This document shows, piece by piece, positions 6,202-49,400 of a DNA stretch of 64,000 nt. A program made the position numbers and the translations under genes. The stretch comes from Neelides folsomi (taxonomy: Eukaryota > Arthropoda > Collembola > Neelipleona > Neelidae), in assembly GCA_034687125.1 (NCBI GenBank), contig JAQGBZ010000116.1:1-64000 (forward strand), in the 5' to 3' direction. The number at the start of each line of letters is the position of its first letter. Position 1 is the stretch's first letter. The notes beneath the pieces were generated by a model. The model saw only the letters and a program-made list of their open reading frames with translations. It did no database searches and was not told where the DNA came from.

Positions 6202-7723
<1,522 letters not shown>

Positions 7724-30514: not shown

Positions 30515-33500
30515 TTAAACAAGATTATAAGATTTAATGGAAGAAGGTTGAGTCGTCGTTGAGCTCTCATTGTCTGTATCTGAACTAAGGCCCCACTCAC
30601 GGCGTTGTTCTACAATCCCCTATTAAAATAATCGAAATTAATTTTAAGGTTATCATATAACTTAACATAATTATCGGAATAAGTTAAAATTATACTTTTT
30701 TAAGGTATGCGAGATGATGAAGAAAATTCTGTTTGGGTGTCTCTTGTGGGTCATTCGAATAAAGCCATTTAATCGTGGCTCGATCTCGTTCTGATAATGA
30801 AGGCTCAACATAATATGACCCTTCATCTTGAGAAGTTTCCTCGCCCTCTGACCCTTCCAAATTAGGGATAGAAAGTTCTAAAATCCCCTTTTCACTCCCT
30901 CTTGAAGATAAAATCGGTCTTGGGTCGGTCTCTTCATTTATTTTATTCGCATCTCTCAATGCTTTTTCTCTCCTTCGTATCTCTTTCTCTTTGTTACGTG
31001 GGCTAATGAGATCTTCATAAGTCGGATAATTCATCACGGTTTCACCATCAATAAGAAGAGGGATGGGAGGTGGAATGTAAAATGTTGAAGAAGGAGATCG
31101 GAATTTATTCCCTTTACGAACCACACGATCTTCGGAGTTAAACAATGAATTCATTTTTGCATAAACCACAGAGGAGTTGTAATGGAGAAGCTCATCAAAA
31201 TCATCATAAGTGGCTGAGGGATTTGGATTGATTTCAAACTCGGGCTCGAATAATTCAAGACCGGAAGAGACTGCAGAAAGTGCTGTGTTGGAACTCTCAG
31301 GTGAGATTTGAGATGAACTGATTACAATTCCTTCATCAATTTCTTCTTCATTTCTAATATTTTCTATCTTAGGATTTTCTAAATTCTCTTCTTCACTTTC
31401 CTCTTGTTCTTCCTCTTCATCGTCCTCCTCACGCTGTTTAATAAGAAGGTAATCTCCTTTGCTCTCGTTTTCTTCCTTCGTTTCTTCATCTTCATTTTCA
31501 CCCGTTTGGTTCATAAGCTCATAAGTGTCGTCTTTATTTTCCTCTTTGCTAACGTTTATTTCATCATCATCATCATTAGTATTATTAATATTAATTTTAT
31601 CCTTATTTTGATTAATTGGCTCGACTTCATTCGTTTTATTCGTATTCGTATTCGCAATTTCGATTTTTGGATCGTTGGTCTGAAGAATTTTTATACATTC
31701 TGCATTTTCCTCCTCAGACTCCGACATTTCCCTTGAGCCGTGTAATATTTTATTAAGAAGTGCAGGGACAGGTGGGGATGCGTATGGGTCGACATATTCT
31801 TCAAACTTATTCATTTCTAACATTGTTTCTTCCCTTGTGTAATGAGTCTCTTGTTCATAATAATAGTCTTTACATGGTTTTATTTTTGGTTCAGAATTAA
31901 ACCTTGATTTTTTCTTTTTCGAGCTTCCATCTCGTCGCGATCGCCCTTCCGGAGCTGAGCGAATTGAATTTTCTTTCTGTTTCCTATTGAAGTCGTCTTC
32001 AAAGGGAAGAAGAGAATTAAGGGAATTTAATCTAAAGTTGATCATTGAAGGATGATCATTTTCTTTATGATTATTTATTGGAGTGTCGGGTCTTTTGGTC
32101 GAGTCGGGAAATAAATTTTCTTTTTTGCTCATTGGGGAATCTTTCCTTGATGATGGAATTGATGCAAGTTTCATTAATTCTTCTTCCTCCTCTTCTTCAA
32201 ATTCATCATTGACATATTCGTAGTCGTAAATGGGATCGTAGTTGTGAAGGAAGGCTTTCAAAGGTTCGTGCTTTTTCGGACTCTCTTTTTTCCTTGGAGG
32301 CTTATATAAATCCTCCGATTCTGTCCCGGTCTCTTGAGCTCTTTGAAGAAGTTCTCTTCGTTTTAATCTCTCAGCTCTTCGTTTCATCCTTTGAGAGTAA
32401 AACGGATCTTTTTCGGACTGTTTTTTGTAACAGATTTTAGCCGGCGTGGCTCCCCATCTCGGCTTCTCTTCTTTTTTATTCGGACATTTGAGTTTATTTT
32501 CTTTGTCTGAAGAGCATTTTTCAATTAAACTGTTTTGGGATCGGCTGTTATTCTTTTCATTTCTCAATCTTCGACTTTCTACGTCGGTTTGCGTTCCAAA
32601 TTCCCTATTATTGCTCAAACTCCTCGATCGCCTCATTCTGGTCGGAGTGAGCAGGCGAGGTTGAGATTGGGAGTAATCGGACTGTTCGGTCATTAAACCT
32701 TGATCCATCTTGTCAATATTGTTGTAGGAGTGGTGAAGCTTGGAAGGCTCATCAAAGAAGGTGGAGGTAGAAGCGAGGGAAATGGTCGGAGAAAGACGCT
32801 GCATTCCAATGGGAGGAAGAAATCCATCTTTTTCTCTTAATTGTTTCATACGTGTGGAGTCAATGAGAAGTCGTTGACGGCTTTCGAGATATTCTGTACG
32901 AATTTCCTCAACTTCATAGCTATTTAACCCACTTCGAGCCGAAATCTTATTCACCTTAATTAAAAAATAATCAATAATAATCTTTTATCATCACAATACT
33001 GGTTGTGTTACTTATAAATCGTTTACACTTAAAATGCTATCATAAAAATAGTCATTTAAATGGAAATAATAAAAATATACTTTTATACTGAATGACTGAA
33101 TGAAAATATAATATCTGTATACTATCTGTATAACATCTAATACTAATTGTATTGCAATTAGAGAATAAATTACTCTTGATTCTTCTCTTTTAGAACTTCT
33201 CCAAACGCCTCCATGTTCTCTTTCAAATATTTGAAGTTCTTTTTGTCTCTCATTTTCAACTCGAGCTTCTTCCAACTTTTCCGCTTCTTCTTTTCTCATT
33301 CGCTCCTCTTTAATCCGATTTTGTCGTTCTTCCATCTAATAAATAACATAATAGAAAAGGTAAAGGTCAACCAACCGATTATTAAAGAAAATTCAATGGC
33401 AGAAGGACAATCATAACAATTTGTAATCGTGAGTAAAACTCAACTCAATCAATACGTGTCTGTGAATTGGAGTTAATTATATATTATTAACTTCTCCACT

Positions 33501-36500
33501 TTGAATTCTAATTTTATAAGTAGAAGAAAGGAAAATATTTTATGACATCCAATTTCACACCATACTTTGGTTGATAGTTTAATAGTTTTGTCCTTTTGTA
33601 ACAAGACATAGAATTCTTGAATTATTTCGAGATAATCATAGTTTATTGTATTGTGAATATTTATATTTAGCTTAAATATTGCAAAGGATGATTGATACGA
33701 AAAATATATAATCTTTATACATATTTTAAATAAAAGCCATCAAGATATTAGTTACAATATCAGTGTGTATAATTTAAGGTATTGGTTGTAATTTTGCAAT
33801 AAACCAAAGAACTATACTTCTTATAACTTATATTGTATGTAAGTATTTATAAATAATTGTTTTGTTATTTTATATATAATTTATGAGAGGTAATCAAATT
33901 ACCTGTTTTCTAATTGCTTGCTGATGTTCAATCGCCGCCACTCGTTTCTTCTCCCTCTCCGCGAGGAAATCGGGGTCAAGCGAAGCAGGGTGACCTCGAA
34001 CGAAACCCCTAAATGGACAAAATGCACTTCTTACTTTCAAGAATAAATCTTGGGACATTTTGAGTTCACACGCAAAGTTCTCATTGGAACAGGTAATCTC
34101 ATAAATCATAAAATAAGGAATTGTGACGTATGTAGTTATGTATGTAATTCTTCCTCATATTTTATATATGCCAAAGACCCCTGGTATAATCGGGTAAATT
34201 CAGTTATTCAAAATAGCGGAATTGGGAAATACTTCATAGTACAAGGAACCTTAATTCACTTTTATACCTAAATATAAAGGCAAAATGGCAAGGGGCAATT
34301 GGGGTGTTCTATTTATTCCAACTATTGAGATTTGACCATTGTAGGATAATTACCTGCTCTCTAAATTCTCCCTCTCCGAATCTCCTATACTTCTGGCATC
34401 AATGAGAGAATTTTCCAAACTAATTCTTTTTTCCAGCCAAGCAGGATTTTTCATTTCTCCCTGTTTGGTGTCATGATTGGGAAGCCTTGAATTCAAGCCC
34501 ATCGATGTCGGTTCCCAAAAATGTCCAACGCCAATTCCGCGATCTCCCCATCTGACATTATTATAAAAACATTGATGAAAAAATATGATAGACCACAATC
34601 ATTAAATTATATATCCTACTAGATAATGAGCATAATGATATGAAGACCTTTTATGAATGCAAAAATATCATATTAATCAGAAAAAGAGTTTAATTTACTT
34701 TGGTCGCTTTTCTTCTCTTTCCATTGCTCTTCTCGCCCTTTGTTCTTCTCTTTGTTTCTCGAGTTCCATGAGCCATTCTTCCCTATCCTTTAATTAATAA
34801 TAAAGTTTATTCAAGGAAGTGTAACCAAAATCAATTCAATGATTTTATTATAATGAATATTTAATATTACCTTTTTCTGTTGGAGTTTATAAGCCTCCAC
34901 TTCTTCAGCTTTAGATGTAAAGGTGAAAGTGGACATTTGATGTTTTTTCATTTTCTCTGACTCGGCTGGTGAATGCATATAAAAATTGTCCCGGACATTT
35001 TCATTATAAACTTTTTTCTCGGTCCAATTTCGTTTGATCTCTTCAGAATGGAGAATTTTATGAACGATAACTTTCGCAATTTCCTCTTCGTGAAGCATTC
35101 CATTTTCCACAAGGGCGAGAGCCCTTGGAGAAATTTTCAATGAAACTCCTTCCCTCTTCATTCCTTCACTTTCTGGCTCGTTGAAAATCAAAATGTTGAC
35201 TGGTGAAGTTCCTTTCTCTTCATATTTATTATTTGGTTTCGACTCGATGCCATTCAAAGAGCTTTCTTTCTCGATTTTGCTCTTGATGCAACAATCTCGA
35301 TGTTCAAGGTGGACATTTGCGCTTGTATTCGTACTTGTATCCACTTTGGTCAAAGTAACTTCCGACTTTTTAGAATTCTTAATTGGTGATTTTTTACCTT
35401 TCGGCGATGGATTGGAATTTCCTGGTGGTTTTTTGATTACGACAGTTGGTTCACTACTTTGATATCCAGATGTGTCTTCTTCAGTTGCGACAGTCTTTGG
35501 ATTGGAATTTAAAGAATTGTCCGATGAATTGTTTCGCTTGAGGAGAGAATCAATTTTATTCTTTTTATTTCGCTCTGGAGAAGAAACTTCTTTCCCTTTC
35601 TCCTCCGAATGCCAAAATGATGTTTTACCTTTCCCTTCATGCGAGCCCCGGATGGGAGGCAAATGGCACGATTCACTACAAGTCAGATTGGACAATACAT
35701 TTCTGTTTCGTAATATATAACTTTTATTGCCTCCCGAAAAAGCCTTTTGAATGGGTTTGTATAAGGTCTACGGTACGTGTCTATCATAATAATATAATAA
35801 TAACTGCAATATTTACTTATACAGGGTATGTATTTATAAGTATTTATACCTAAGCATTAAGTATAATCTGGGCTCATTCAGGGAGTATTATAGAGTCGTG
35901 TGCATGAAACATATTTAACTACATTCGCGAAAAAAGCGTAGTAGGTCATGAAGTGAAAAGAGTGATACTTCTGGTTCTAATTAACTTTTACTCATTTGTT
36001 CATGCTATAGACTCAAAGCATATCCGGATACGCTATATCCGTTATCGATGACATAGATAGATAAAGCAAAGAATGGATAATATACCTAGAGATATTGAAC
36101 CAACTAAACTACTGAGATGTTTACACTACGAGGCTAATCCGGGAAATGAAAAAAAATAAGAATTAAAATTAAGCTACGAACCTTTGTTGAATTCCTAATT
36201 TCGAGATGTAAGAAGGAGAAAGTATGGGCACGGGGTGAAGGGGCACAACATCACATTCAGTAGGTCGACCCCAAGGGCTCCAAAGTCCATTAAGTTCTTC
36301 TGTAGAGCATAAAAATCAAATGAGCTTTAATATTCATTCTACAAACATTTCATATTCTTAACTAGCTTAAGTAGTATAAACAAATAAATTTTTCCAGTTC
36401 ATTGGACTCGTCAACTTCAAAAGAAAGTCAAAGTTAAGAGAAAAGAATGCCCTCGGAATAAAGAAGGGTTGGCTATGCTATGTTAGGAAGTTAGGATTAT

Positions 36501-42945: not shown

Positions 42946-45931
42946 ATGACGAATGACCATTGGTCTGATAGTAATAAAAGAGGATCGGATATATCCGAGG
43001 GTGCCGAGGGAGGAAGTCGACGTAATTCATACGTCCGTGACACAAGAGCTAATGGCAGTATGCGGGCAAGTCTCTTTCCCCGTGAGGTTTCTGGACAAGA
43101 AAGTCGGAAAATTCATCATAATCATCACCATCATAAAGAGCATGAAACTCATGGACAATACAAACTGGACATCCAGGGTGGTGGTGGACCATTTAGAAAA
43201 TTTGCATATCAAAATCGGAAGCTCCTCTTTCAACCCGTTGAAGATCTGTTCAAAGAATATGCCAACATGTTTGGTGGAGATTCAAAGAAAGGGACACCAA
43301 AAATTGATCTGTTTGAACTCGAGGCTTGGTTCCGGAAATCAAAGTTCTTTGAAAAAGACTCAATTCCTATGATGTCCGTCAACGAACTCAAGAGCTTTTT
43401 TGAAAGAATATTAGACATTTTTAAATGCTTTTATATTTTTACATACAAAAATTACATTAAACATTCATTCCTCAATTGCCAAACAAAAACTGAAAAAATT
43501 GAAATGTTTATTTTCATCATTAATTAATTGATTTTAAAGGGGAAAGGATCACATTGACTTTGAAGGATTCGTTTATTTAATTGAAGCCATTTCACAGTTC
43601 AAGTCCATCCATGAAAATGCGATCATTTACAAACTACGCGTTGGGGGAAGTCCAGATATGGAATCTAAATTCAAACATGCAACATTACCAGGTTGTTATT
43701 TTAAAGACTTTAAATCATCATTTCATGATTATTCTTGTGATTTTAATGAGATTATGATTTGATTACTTTTATTATTTGTTGAGAGAAGAAGGAACAGCGG
43801 ATCGTTTAGTTGACGCATTTCGAGGAGTCTCACAAATGGTTACGGAAACTTTTTACAATAAGTCGGAAACACCTTACAAAGAACCTGTTTGTGTCGGAGT
43901 AAGATATTTTTCTATTTCTTTAAATATCATCATTTCATAATCCGCTTAATCCTTTTCCATTATTTAAACATGTCAATCTTGTACCTAGTTAATATATATG
44001 GTTTATATTTCTAATAAAAGATTATGTTTCATGTTTAGGGAGTAAAAACAAACATTTTCATGAAGAAGGCTACAAAAAAAGTCATAGAAGAACTTATGGA
44101 TGACCATGCTCCTACTACAGGTAATTATCAATATTAAAAGCGTAGACAAAGGTATTTGAATAGATTGGTTGTTATATGAAGCAGGAAAATCCAATTAATG
44201 AGTACACCTTTTAAATTGATTAACTTTGTATGTATATTTGGTAGAGGCAAAGTCTACGAGTGACTATTCACGAATTCAAAGTTATAGAAGATTTCATGAT
44301 CCCTTCAACATGAACTTCATTTACTTTGCTAAACAAGATAATTATTTCGCTGATGGTCGACGAATCTGCTTGACAAATATCATCAAATGGTTGAAGCAAG
44401 CTGGAATTATTGATGGCTTGGTTGTATCGTCCGCTGACATTGTTTATCTTTTCAAAGAACTTTACACGTAAGATCGACATAAATTGATCCTTCAATTTTA
44501 AAGTTCAGCTAACTTGCTTATTAATTAATTGATTACTCCTCAGAATGCTCAAACATCAGATTTATCTCTACGACCTCCGTCATCATTTTTTGAAAGAATT
44601 GTCAAGTTGGAAAGGTATTGGAAAAGACTTGCTAATAAGTAAAATGAGGAAATGTGGACCACCGGCTGGAAGTTCCTATTCCCTTATAAAAATGAAAATA
44701 CCAGTCTCGAAATTGAACCAGTTCAGAGACATTGTTGAAGAAATGGCTCAGGACTATGAAAATGACAAGGAAAAATATATGCCATTAACTGTAAGCTTCA
44801 ACAGCCATTCTTTGACGATAATGTTAATCATGTTAACAATGTTAAGCATAAATAAATGGTATAATTAACCAAGTATAAATTACTAATTAAATAGGAAGAC
44901 ACCCCATTTGGTCACACGTTTAAATCTCGAGATCGATTCTTCCAAGATGAACTCGAAATGTATCCAGAAATAGGCCATTTGATGATTTTGAAAGCGAAGA
45001 TCAAAAAGCCGAAAAAGATTTTCATCAAAAAGAGCAAAATTCATATGAGAAAAGCAACATTGGCCAATCAAGGAGGCACCAAGGCGAAAAAGGTGAAAAA
45101 GAATGAAAACGAAATGAATGAGTTGGAACTTCTTCAAAAGATCGGGAAAGAAATGGGAACAGTCGCTGAGAACCCCAAGACGAAGCCTCCATACATGGTC
45201 AAGAAATGGGGAGAATCATATCCATTTGGCGGGTTCAAGAGGATCGGTCGCGGGTTGCGAATTTCTAACGACATTGAGAAATTGATGTATCATAAGCATG
45301 ATACAGTGAAGGATAACAATTCTGAAGAAGATTTTCATCCTGAGCACAACATCGTTCCGTTCAATCTTCAATTCAGCTACTTTGCCGGTCCAACAGGAAG
45401 GAGCGATGTGGGAATTTCTTTAAAACGTATCCAACAATGGTTTGAACAAGCCAAGATTCTCCAAAAGGGTTCTGAAAGGGATTTGCTCAATGACACAGGA
45501 GTCAGACTTGGCGATATCAAGGAAGTTTTCACACATGTTATTGCGTAAGGAGACCAAATAAAATTAAATGTCTTAAATAAAATTAGTTACTGAACTTAAA
45601 TAAAATAAGGTAAATTAATATTAAATTGAAGATTTGTTAAATACTTTCAATTAGAATTCTTGGGAAGAAAGATCATCATTTGACACGAGATGGATTTGAA
45701 AATTTTTTGAAAATCCTTGCTGAAAAAACTGGGAATTATGTGAAGGCAATGAAAGATCGTCTTTGTAAATGCGGATCACCAAAGCACAAAAGCAGATCTG
45801 TCTCTCGATCAGTTACAATGAAGAGTTTACATCTAGGAGATGTTCTCAATTTGCAAGAGATGCATCTTTTGAACAAGGAAAAATCTCATCATGAAAACAT
45901 CCATAATCATTTCCATTCTAAGCATCTTTGA
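42946..45931 (+). CDS. Protein with three p25-alpha (TPPP-like) domains
   Basis: Eight exons, 42946-43415 (donor uncertain), 43540-43691, 43786-43898, 44039-44120, 44245-44467, 44544-44790, 44895-45544 and 45655-45931, give about 737 residues. Three p25-alpha units are visible: ~95-175 (LFELEAWFRKSKFF, SVNELKSFFERI, KDHIDFEGFVYLIE), ~295-375 (LTNIIKWLKQAGIIDG, SSADIVYLFKEL) and ~583-680 (LKRIQQWFEQAKIL, RLGDIKEVFTHVIA, DGFENFLKILAE). They follow the TPPP pattern W-x-K-x-x-x-x...D-x-D-I-V-F...F-x-x-F. All three are cut by a phase-2 intron at the same place, which supports tandem duplication. The N-terminus has a histidine-rich run (~57-70) and the end of the second spacer is lysine-rich. Usual TPPP has a single domain and bundles microtubules. 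The first donor is not GT (see findings). AATAAA lies at 45940-45945. Confidence 0.8.
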
Positions 45932-46463: not shown

Positions 46464-49400
46464 TTATTCTGTTTCGAATCCTCCCTCGGATTCGTCACTG
46501 AAAGTGTATTTCGCTGCTGCTTTTTCTCTTCGTTGGCGATCTCCAGCAGCTGCACTTTTCATGACTTTCTCGGGGCTGCTCACCACAAATTCATCATCCG
46601 AATCCATAATGCCTCTCCCCTTCTAAAGAAATATACAAAAAGAACATTTTAATAAATTACTAAACTAATTGAAAAACATTAAAACTATTTGATACAAACC
46701 TTCTTCTTGGGCTTAAATCCAACACTTGAATCCGAATCACTAAGACTGAAGTCTTCTTCCTCCGAGTTATTCTTCTTCTTTTGTCTCTTAACAGGGCTTT
46801 TCTTCTCAGCTGGCTTCTTCTTTTCAGCTGGTTTCTTTGTGGTCTTCCTAAATGTCAGCTTTGTCTGTTTCAACCCATCAGTTGGCTCTTTGGGTTTCCT
46901 CGGCCCTCTCTTTTTCTTTTCCTTCTCTCCACTATTGCCATTCTCACTACTCCCATTCGCTTTCCTTGGTGAATCATCCATCTCGTCACTTGTATTCAAA
47001 ATTTCAATAAGAGAACTTTGTTCAGCAGCCATTGCATCGTATTTATCTAATTTGATCTTTGGCTCTTTTTCCTTCTTCGGCTTCTTCTCCTTAGATTTAG
47101 CTTTTGTAGCCAACTCAACCTTCTTCGTAATAGCATCCATTCTTGGAGCAACTTTCCGACCTCCGGGACTCGGAGCAACATCAATGAGGGCTTTTCTCGA
47201 AAAGTTCTTCTTAGTCGTCACCTTTTTCTTTGATTCCAACGAATCTTGCTCTTCTTCCTTCTCAACTTTGTTCAATTGGACCAAAAATTCGTCCAAGTCA
47301 TCTTTGTAAAGATCTTTAGGAGTTTTGGCCTTCAACGTGTTCAATTCTTTGTTCTTCTCATCTCGCTTCCTCAACAATTCTTCCTTCTTCTCGAGAGTCA
47401 AACTCACAATGGGCATGTTGAGTAAATAATCGTAATCTTGTCCAGCCACAATTTCCTCAGGAACCTCTTCGCTGTCTCCAGCTGTTGGTTCATCGTCATG
47501 TTGTCGATTTGTTCTTGCAGTTTCAGCAACTTTCCATGCTTTCACAGGATCCGAATCATACCCGCGTCTTTTTAATTCGTCCATCATCAGCTTCTTCTTT
47601 TTGTTTTCAACAACGAGTTTCCCGTCACACTTCTCTGAAATGAACCGAGCTTGGTTTGAAAGTTTTGATGCTTCAGCTGTCAAAATTCCCAACATGTATT
47701 CACGACGTTTGTCATACAAATCAATTCTCAATTCGTAGAATTCCTTCATAATCTCAATAGGCGACTCGTATCTTTTAATACAGCCATTTCGATCAAACAA
47801 GACCATACTTGTAAGATTAATCGCTGATTGCAATTTAAATGCTGCATGGAACCCAGTTTCTTCATATCTGTCCATGTCTTCAGACTTGAGTGAAACAATA
47901 AATTTAACTGTTGTGTCGGTGTGATACTCCTTGTAGTCGTTGATCATCGGCTTAATCTTCTCAGTCCCGTTCAACATCGGTTCCATCACATTTTCCTTAT
48001 AAGTCTGGGTCCATGTGGCAATGGGGAGTTCAGTAATTTCGAATCGATCCTGTTGGAGAACGCTCACAACTCCGTTGACAGCGAATTTCTGCGGAGTTAT
48101 CTCAACAATATCCCCAGTGAATCCTTTGTACCACGGATTCATCGGTAGCAATTCATCGTCTCTCAAAAGCCGAAACAGATTTTCCACAATTTCTCTCGGA
48201 TTGTAATTGGGGGCTTTTGTGCTCCATCCCGTCCCAATGCCTTCAGCTCCATTCACAAGGACCATTGGCAAGATAGGGCAATACCATTCAGGCTCAATCT
48301 TTTGATGATCATCGTACAAGTTCTTAAGAATTGCATCGTCATTTGAATTGAAGATGTAGCGAGCAAGTGGGGAAAGCATAGTGAAGATATATCTCGGACT
48401 GGCCGAATCTTTTCCACCTTGAAGTCTCGTTCCAAATTGACCGATCGGCTGAAGCAAATTGATGTTATTCGATCCAACATAATTTTGAGCCAAGTTGACA
48501 ATGGTGGACATCAACGAAGCTTCACCGTGATGGTAAGCGGAATGCTCAGCAACTGAACCAGCCAACTGAGCCACTTTAATTTCCCTCTTGTCATTTCTCT
48601 TGAAACAAGTAAAGAGAACTTTCCTCTGTCCCGGCTTCAATCCATCAACCACTGAAGGGATTGATCTCTCGTTGTCCAAATTGCTAAAGAGGACAAGTTC
48701 TTTGTTCACAAATTCACTATAAGTGATGGCTGCAACATCTTTGTCGTAAATGATGTCTTCAGCTTCACCCAACTCCCGTCTTCTTTTAACTCCTTCCATC
48801 CAATTGGTGAGCCAAACCTTTCGATCCTCAACATGCTTCTTACTAAACGCCATCATGATCTGATCGTCGTCCGTCTTTCCTTGATACTTGAACCTGATAC
48901 GATGGCGAGCCATGTCAGAGAAATATTCTTTGGCCTCTTTGGAAGTTGACGTACCCAAGCCCTTGTAATACTTAATTTTGTAATTTCGCCAGTTGGCTTT
49001 GTTCTTCTTCCATTCTTCGAGTTCAGGGGTGGAGAAAAAGGAAATGACTTCCGACCCCCTGGAAGCCTTCACAATCGGAGTGATGAATTGTTCAAGAAAA
49101 CCAAGTTTGAGAAGTGATGGCCAATTTGTGTGGACAAAGTTAATGATGAGACCTTTGATATGGGAGCCGTCGTGATCCTGATCAGTCATAATCATCACTT
49201 TGCCATAGCGAAGGGTCTTGAGATCGTCATAACTGTCATATTTTTCTTTGTACTTAAGCCCGATGATTTTCACAAGAGCAGAAATTTCAGCGTTGTCCAT
49301 AATCTATTCAATAAATTCGATAAATTATTAAAAATTCCAGACTCCAAATTATATTTATTCCATTTTAAATTACCTGTTTGTGAGATGCGTCCCGAACATT

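Follow-up and report, generated by a model that had tools for sequence, protein, structure and literature searches.

Proteins in which the p25-alpha domain of the TPPP family occurs more than once are known from several lineages. In the available text of PMC12731214, TPPPs with two whole domains are reported from an annelid, a sponge, a chytrid and choanoflagellates (the 'double long' forms of Lamellibrachia, Halichondria, Salpingoeca and Chytridiales sp.), and one with three whole domains ('triple long') from the green alga Cymbomonas. Green algae also have proteins with one to three short p25-alpha domains placed beside EF-hands, and stramenopiles are named in the same context (PMC3498115, as far as its text is available). 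In the ciliate Tetrahymena the TPPP-like domains of TLP1 and TLP2 bind tubulin directly, and TLP2 carries two such domains on a long helix that runs across eight protofilaments of the central pair at the ciliary tip; the authors call the role of TPPP in cilia unclear (PMC11642885, available portions). The arthropod TPPPs described in the accessible parts of PMC3498115 and PMC8180608 are only long and truncated ones, each with a single domain, and no arthropod protein with more than one p25-alpha domain was found among the open-access papers searched. Here a gene of the springtail Neelides folsomi is described that lies within the first 64,000 nucleotides of contig JAQGBZ010000116.1 (the window) at positions 42946-45931 of the + strand. 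Judged from its sequence the gene looks real, and its apparent product is a single protein in which the p25-alpha domain occurs in three diverged copies (D1, D2 and D3). Since tandem TPPP domains have already been described in algae, in protists and in a handful of animals, this would be a familiar family in a new arrangement.

The original prediction for this locus, made from the DNA letters, had taken animal TPPPs to have one domain, a premise that is outdated in view of the whole-domain doubles of the annelid and the sponge, the two animal groups from which such doubles are reported (PMC12731214, in the text available). Each described system resembles the present protein in some respects and differs in others. 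Truncated TPPP (Drosophila CG6709 and its orthologues; PMC8180608, in part) is likewise an arthropod p25-alpha core that lacks the last exon and has a phase-2 intron at a conserved lysine codon, but it is a single-domain protein of 117 residues in Drosophila, whereas here three domains are distributed over 734 residues with long linkers between them. The double and triple long TPPPs share the repeated domain, threefold in Cymbomonas, but in these the whole domain is repeated, as far as PMC12731214 could be consulted, whereas no copy here has the GxGxGxxGR motif and the host is a pancrustacean. The green-algal proteins come near in that short or truncated domains occur several times in one chain, a Micromonas protein having three, but they are algal and fused to EF-hand domains of a kind absent from the Pfam scans made here (PMC3498115, same portions). 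Tetrahymena TLP2 has more than one TPPP-like domain with a long linker between and is the basis of the strap model considered below, but it is a ciliate protein of 1694 residues with an ARM domain and two TPPP-like domains (PMC11642885, same portions). The ordinary long TPPPs (PDB codes 2jrf and 9j4f and two genes of this genome on contigs C10 and C567) have the same p25-alpha core, and in the C10 and C567 genes the phase-2 intron also, but they have one domain and retain GxGxGxxGR. The C10 and C567 genes are ordinary three-exon long TPPP genes; non-vertebrate animals generally have one TPPP gene according to the part of PMC8180608 consulted.

The features of the gene are as follows, all on the + strand.

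42946..43409, +, exon 1, with the start codon, the histidine-rich head and the first half of D1 (gene model; best of six frames; G+C 0.42)
43114..43152, +, histidine-rich run in the head, residues 57-69 (sequence)
43225..43675, +, p25-alpha domain D1, residues 94-200, split by intron 1 (four-TPPP profile)
43410..43539, +, intron 1, phase 2, inside D1, 130 nucleotides, G+C 0.18, donor reading AT (donor scoring)
43540..43691, +, exon 2, second half of D1 (gene model)
43789..43898, +, exon 3, stretch after D1 resembling the start of the last TPPP exon (gene model, profile)
44039..44120, +, exon 4, linker between D1 and D2 (gene model)
44245..44467, +, exon 5, end of the same linker and first half of D2 (gene model, Pfam)
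44289..44682, +, p25-alpha domain D2, residues 285-390, split by intron 5 (PF05517, four-TPPP profile)
44468..44543, +, intron 5, GT-AG, phase 2, at the ancestral TPPP intron site, 76 nucleotides (intron comparison)
44544..44790, +, exon 6, second half of D2 and start of the linker between D2 and D3 (gene model)
44895..45544, +, exon 7, linker between D2 and D3 and first half of D3 (gene model)
44979..45101, +, most basic 41 residues of the protein, 455-495 (sequence)
45348..45802, +, p25-alpha domain D3, residues 578-692, split by intron 7 (four-TPPP profile; PF05517 under the cut-off)
45545..45654, +, intron 7, GT-AG, phase 2, at the ancestral TPPP intron site, 110 nucleotides (intron comparison)
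45655..45931, +, exon 8, second half of D3, histidine-rich tail and stop (gene model)

The gene model bears out the original prediction as to position and strand, the number of exons (eight) and the unbroken reading frame. Introns 1 and 5-7 were set by eye, and 192 combinations of sites were tried for introns 2-4, nine of which keep a single open frame and encode proteins of 729-735 residues; the model adopted here encodes 734. Its introns 2 to 7 are GT-AG, with the acceptor in front of exon 3 placed at 43785, 43788 or 43791, and the exons have a G+C content of 0.35-0.42 vs 0.18-0.29 for the introns. With codon frequencies taken from the neighboring topoisomerase II exon the chosen frame is the best of six in all eight exons, by a score that penalizes frames with stops and hence tilts toward the chosen frame; the win is narrow at exon 2 (0.05 vs -0.08) and the score of exon 8 is slightly negative (-0.04). 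The predicted protein is basic, with a mass of 85 kDa, and its domains are separated by linkers of ~84 residues (D1 to D2) and ~187 residues (D2 to D3).

The domain assignment is strong for D2 and weaker for D1 and D3. The whole protein matches the Pfam p25-alpha family (PF05517) at an E-value of 3.3e-11 with 44.1 bits against a cut-off of 22.6, best at residues 293-388, and at the loose limit of E <= 10 three PF05517 stretches are found in it, in agreement with the three segments claimed originally. Taken singly only D2 passes the cut-off, with 27.6 bits as a 151-residue piece and 24.9 bits as one of 105, and this together with the whole-protein score places the protein in the TPPP-like superfamily. 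The 116-residue core of D3 reaches 16.9 bits (E 0.0077), below the cut-off, and its 161-residue piece gives no match; D1 alone has no PF05517 match in either of two lengths. The original prediction was staked on at least two significant p25-alpha matches and on Pfam alone it escaped narrowly, with one match over the cut-off and the second, that of D3, under it.

A profile of four TPPPs, composed of the two from this genome and the PDB chains 2jrf and 9j4f, finds residues 98-216 (7.2 bits), 293-388 (32.3 bits) and 629-689 (3.5 bits) in the whole protein. When pieces are scored separately against this profile, each with 5000 shuffles, D2 has 38.2 bits and its core 37.6 bits, neither equaled by any shuffle; D1 has 12.4 bits with its flanks (0 of 5000 shuffles as high) and 7.7 bits as a core (4 of 5000), and D3 has 8.5 bits (2 of 5000) and 8.4 bits as a core (1 of 5000). 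No fourth domain is found by the same profile in the head or the linkers, which score 0.2-1.7 bits and behave like shuffled sequence, with 699 shuffles of 5000 as high for the head, 486 for the D1-D2 linker and 885 for the D2-D3 linker (0.6 bits). Compared as single sequences the domains score 14.5-15.6 bits for D2-D3, 10.1-10.2 for D1-D3 and 5.2-5.6 for D1-D2, values matched by 0-6 of 2000 shuffles and for D2-D3 by none. D2 is 36-38% identical to the ordinary TPPPs of this genome. The NCBIfam search gave a chance-level match only (E 0.85), and the matches of pieces to CEP76_N, GemA, SPATA19 and other Pfam families (E >= 0.012) are taken as chance, lying under the cut-off wherever a cut-off was printed.

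The gene structure provides a second line of comparison. In D2 a phase-2 intron falls at F-K-E-L-Y-[T] and in D3 at F-T-H-V-I-[A], and in both ordinary TPPP genes on contigs C10 and C567 a phase-2 intron lies inside the lysine codon of F-K-K-L-F-[K]. The D2 and D3 sites match these two genes exactly, as expected of the animal TPPP gene structure with its phase-2 intron at the conserved lysine codon, whereas the D1 site matches only approximately. The phase-2 intron of the C10 and C567 genes is also reported from human TPPP1 and Drosophila CG6709 (PMC8180608, in the portion available). The claim that each segment is interrupted at one and the same point is thus exact for D2 and D3 and approximate for D1, which has no GT donor. 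The proposed origin by duplication agrees with the sites in the C10 and C567 genes and with those described in the accessible text of PMC8180608, from which the three domains would derive from a TPPP unit that already had the phase-2 intron. Identity between the domains is 19% for D1-D2, 24% for D1-D3 and 32% for D2-D3, and the terminal branches of the domain tree have 1.6-2.3 substitutions per site, which indicates either an old multiplication or a fast-evolving gene; relatives are to be expected in other arthropods. The branches that bear on the mutual kinship of the three domains have support values of 37/51 and 49.9/56, too low to group or to separate them. Among bacterial and archaeal contigs 68 pattern matches were obtained and none confirmed, as expected, the query being exon 7 only (217 of the 734 residues). 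The conserved intron provides a simple marker with which the multiplication of TPPP domains can be traced.

The GxGxGxxGR motif occurs nowhere in the protein and is present in all four long TPPPs checked. The protein therefore falls outside the long, double long and triple long TPPPs, which have a whole domain with this C-terminal motif, and since no copy has it the domains are, on sequence and by the scheme given in the consulted parts of PMC3498115 and PMC8180608, of the 'truncated' kind. They share with the CG6709 type the core without the last-exon block and depart from it in not forming a single-domain protein. Past D1 a faint resemblance to the beginning of the last TPPP exon remains (GTADRLVD vs GVVERLTD).

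We tentatively favor, at somewhat less than an even chance, a single pancrustacean gene whose three truncated p25-alpha domains derive from a multiplied TPPP unit and whose product straps or cross-links axonemal microtubules. A TPPP unit already containing the phase-2 intron would have been multiplied to give the three-domain gene, the p25-alpha domains would be seated in the grooves between microtubule protofilaments and the linkers would lead the chain across the microtubule lattice, so that in the sperm flagellum or in sensory cilia the microtubules of the axoneme would be strapped or cross-linked, as TLP2 does with two domains. By our own estimate the linkers of 84 and 187 residues, if helical, would span about two and about five protofilaments. 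The sharper version, a pancrustacean axonemal protein in which the three truncated domains clamp three protofilament grooves of one microtubule or bridge two microtubules as an independent animal counterpart of Tetrahymena TLP2, is doubtful. The genome contains matches to the axonemal families tektin (5 contigs), Radial_spoke_3 (2), CH_2 (2) and IFT57 (2), and on these grounds the animal is able to make axonemes and, probably, sensory cilia; the 14 control genomes gave a tektin match too, in one bacterium, and IFT57 matches in three archaea, none of which reached the cut-off. A profile of the three window domains and four TPPPs (profile A1) reaches the solved TLP1 structure (PDB code 9nw3), though only at E 0.13.

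Several observations weigh against the axonemal reading. The axonemal families show a capacity to build axonemes and not a placement of the three-domain protein in them. Basic residues are found near both of the TLP1/TLP2 contact places in D2, near one or both in D1 and near neither with any clarity in D3, by an ungapped, weak count along profile A1. Searches of the PDB with phmmer list no TPPP among eight matches of the whole protein and four of D2, and with a profile of the three window domains TPPP accounts for two of the three listed matches, at E ~1, behind an unrelated protein at E 0.7. There is no GT donor in the stretch tested for intron 1 that leaves D1 whole. The protein also has no full counterpart of the last coding exon of TPPP, which is held responsible for microtubule binding (PMC8180608, as far as available), and this loss of the C-terminal block makes a non-binding scaffold a serious rival.

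In such a scaffold the three cores would not bind microtubules at all and would serve protein-protein contacts, either self-association or the binding of partners, with any microtubule contact coming from the basic linker alone. The absence of GxGxGxxGR, the function ascribed to the last exon and the strongly basic stretch at residues 455-495 all fit this explanation; the tubulin binding by TPPP-like domains of TLP1 and TLP2 is the precedent for the strap, and we consider the scaffold rather unlikely. Three cores without the C-terminal microtubule-binding block would separate the two parts of TPPP. The linker between D2 and D3, with an isoelectric point (pI) of 9.4, has the most basic stretch of the protein, whereas that between D1 and D2 has a pI of 6.9, so the basic linkers of the original prediction apply to the second and not to the first.

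Intron 1 is the least regular part of the model. When donor sites between 43250 and 43534 are combined with acceptor sites no further along than 43599, the best in-frame junctions are AT-AG at 43410 (12.3 bits) and AT-AG at 43425 (12.1 bits), which score about the same and leave the exact donor uncertain; the best GT-AG choice, at 43344, has 9.3 bits and cuts away part of D1. The AT at 43405-43430 may reflect a rare intron of the AT-AG type, a defective allele or a mistake in the assembly. Another explanation is a product that is shortened or spliced differently, with intron 1 retained or an upstream GT donor used so that D1 is broken and the main product has only D2 and D3 intact, or with the missing donor an assembly error or damaged allele; the lack of a GT donor at the homologous site speaks for it, and so do canonical options such as 43344 and 43378, which remove part of D1. 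Neither the exon 7 protein nor the opening 1185 bases of the gene, used as queries, found a second copy or haplotype in the assembly, so that this first part has no copy for comparison. However, exon 2 scores best in its true frame, by the small margin given above, and the TPPP similarity of D1 is kept on both sides of intron 1, which makes this explanation improbable.

That D1 and D3 are EF-hand-like helical modules resembling p25-alpha by fold only, leaving one true TPPP domain, draws on the missing Pfam match of D1, on D3 lying below the cut-off or without a match and on the reach of profile A1 to calbindin D9k (E 0.04-0.2), but it is very hard to reconcile with the shared position of the phase-2 intron in D3 and, more loosely, in D1, with the D2-D3 similarity of 14.5-15.6 bits (0 of 2000 shuffles) and with Pfam scans that list no EF-hand family for the whole protein or for its separate domains.

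The head, residues 1-93, contains nine histidines and has a pI of 9.9, in accordance with the histidine-rich head proposed originally, and the tail encoded at 45887-45925 is histidine-rich as well (eight histidines). Runs of this type at both ends of the protein would be compatible with metal binding, as a possibility suggested by composition.

Next to the p25-alpha gene, at 46685-49303 (-), lies a convergent exon of DNA topoisomerase II that has 872 codons and ends in a lysine-rich stretch. Long open frames of 764 and 318 residues are present at 30693-32984 (-) and 34814-35767 (-), with no Pfam match at E <= 0.01, and a gene of the LAG1/Su(H) DNA-binding type is found at 6202-6984 (+). Elsewhere in the genome, 39 matches to Chitin_bind_4 and the mitochondrial features given next indicate an origin among insects and crustaceans, and three weak matches to 7tm_6 (25-36 bits) point faintly to an insect. 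Among the mitochondrial genes COX1 was identified by family and the others were named by reading of the frames; 11 TGA codons are read through in COX1. The gene order, with I-Q-M before nd2 and tRNA-Leu(taa) between cox1 and cox2, is the ancestral pancrustacean one.
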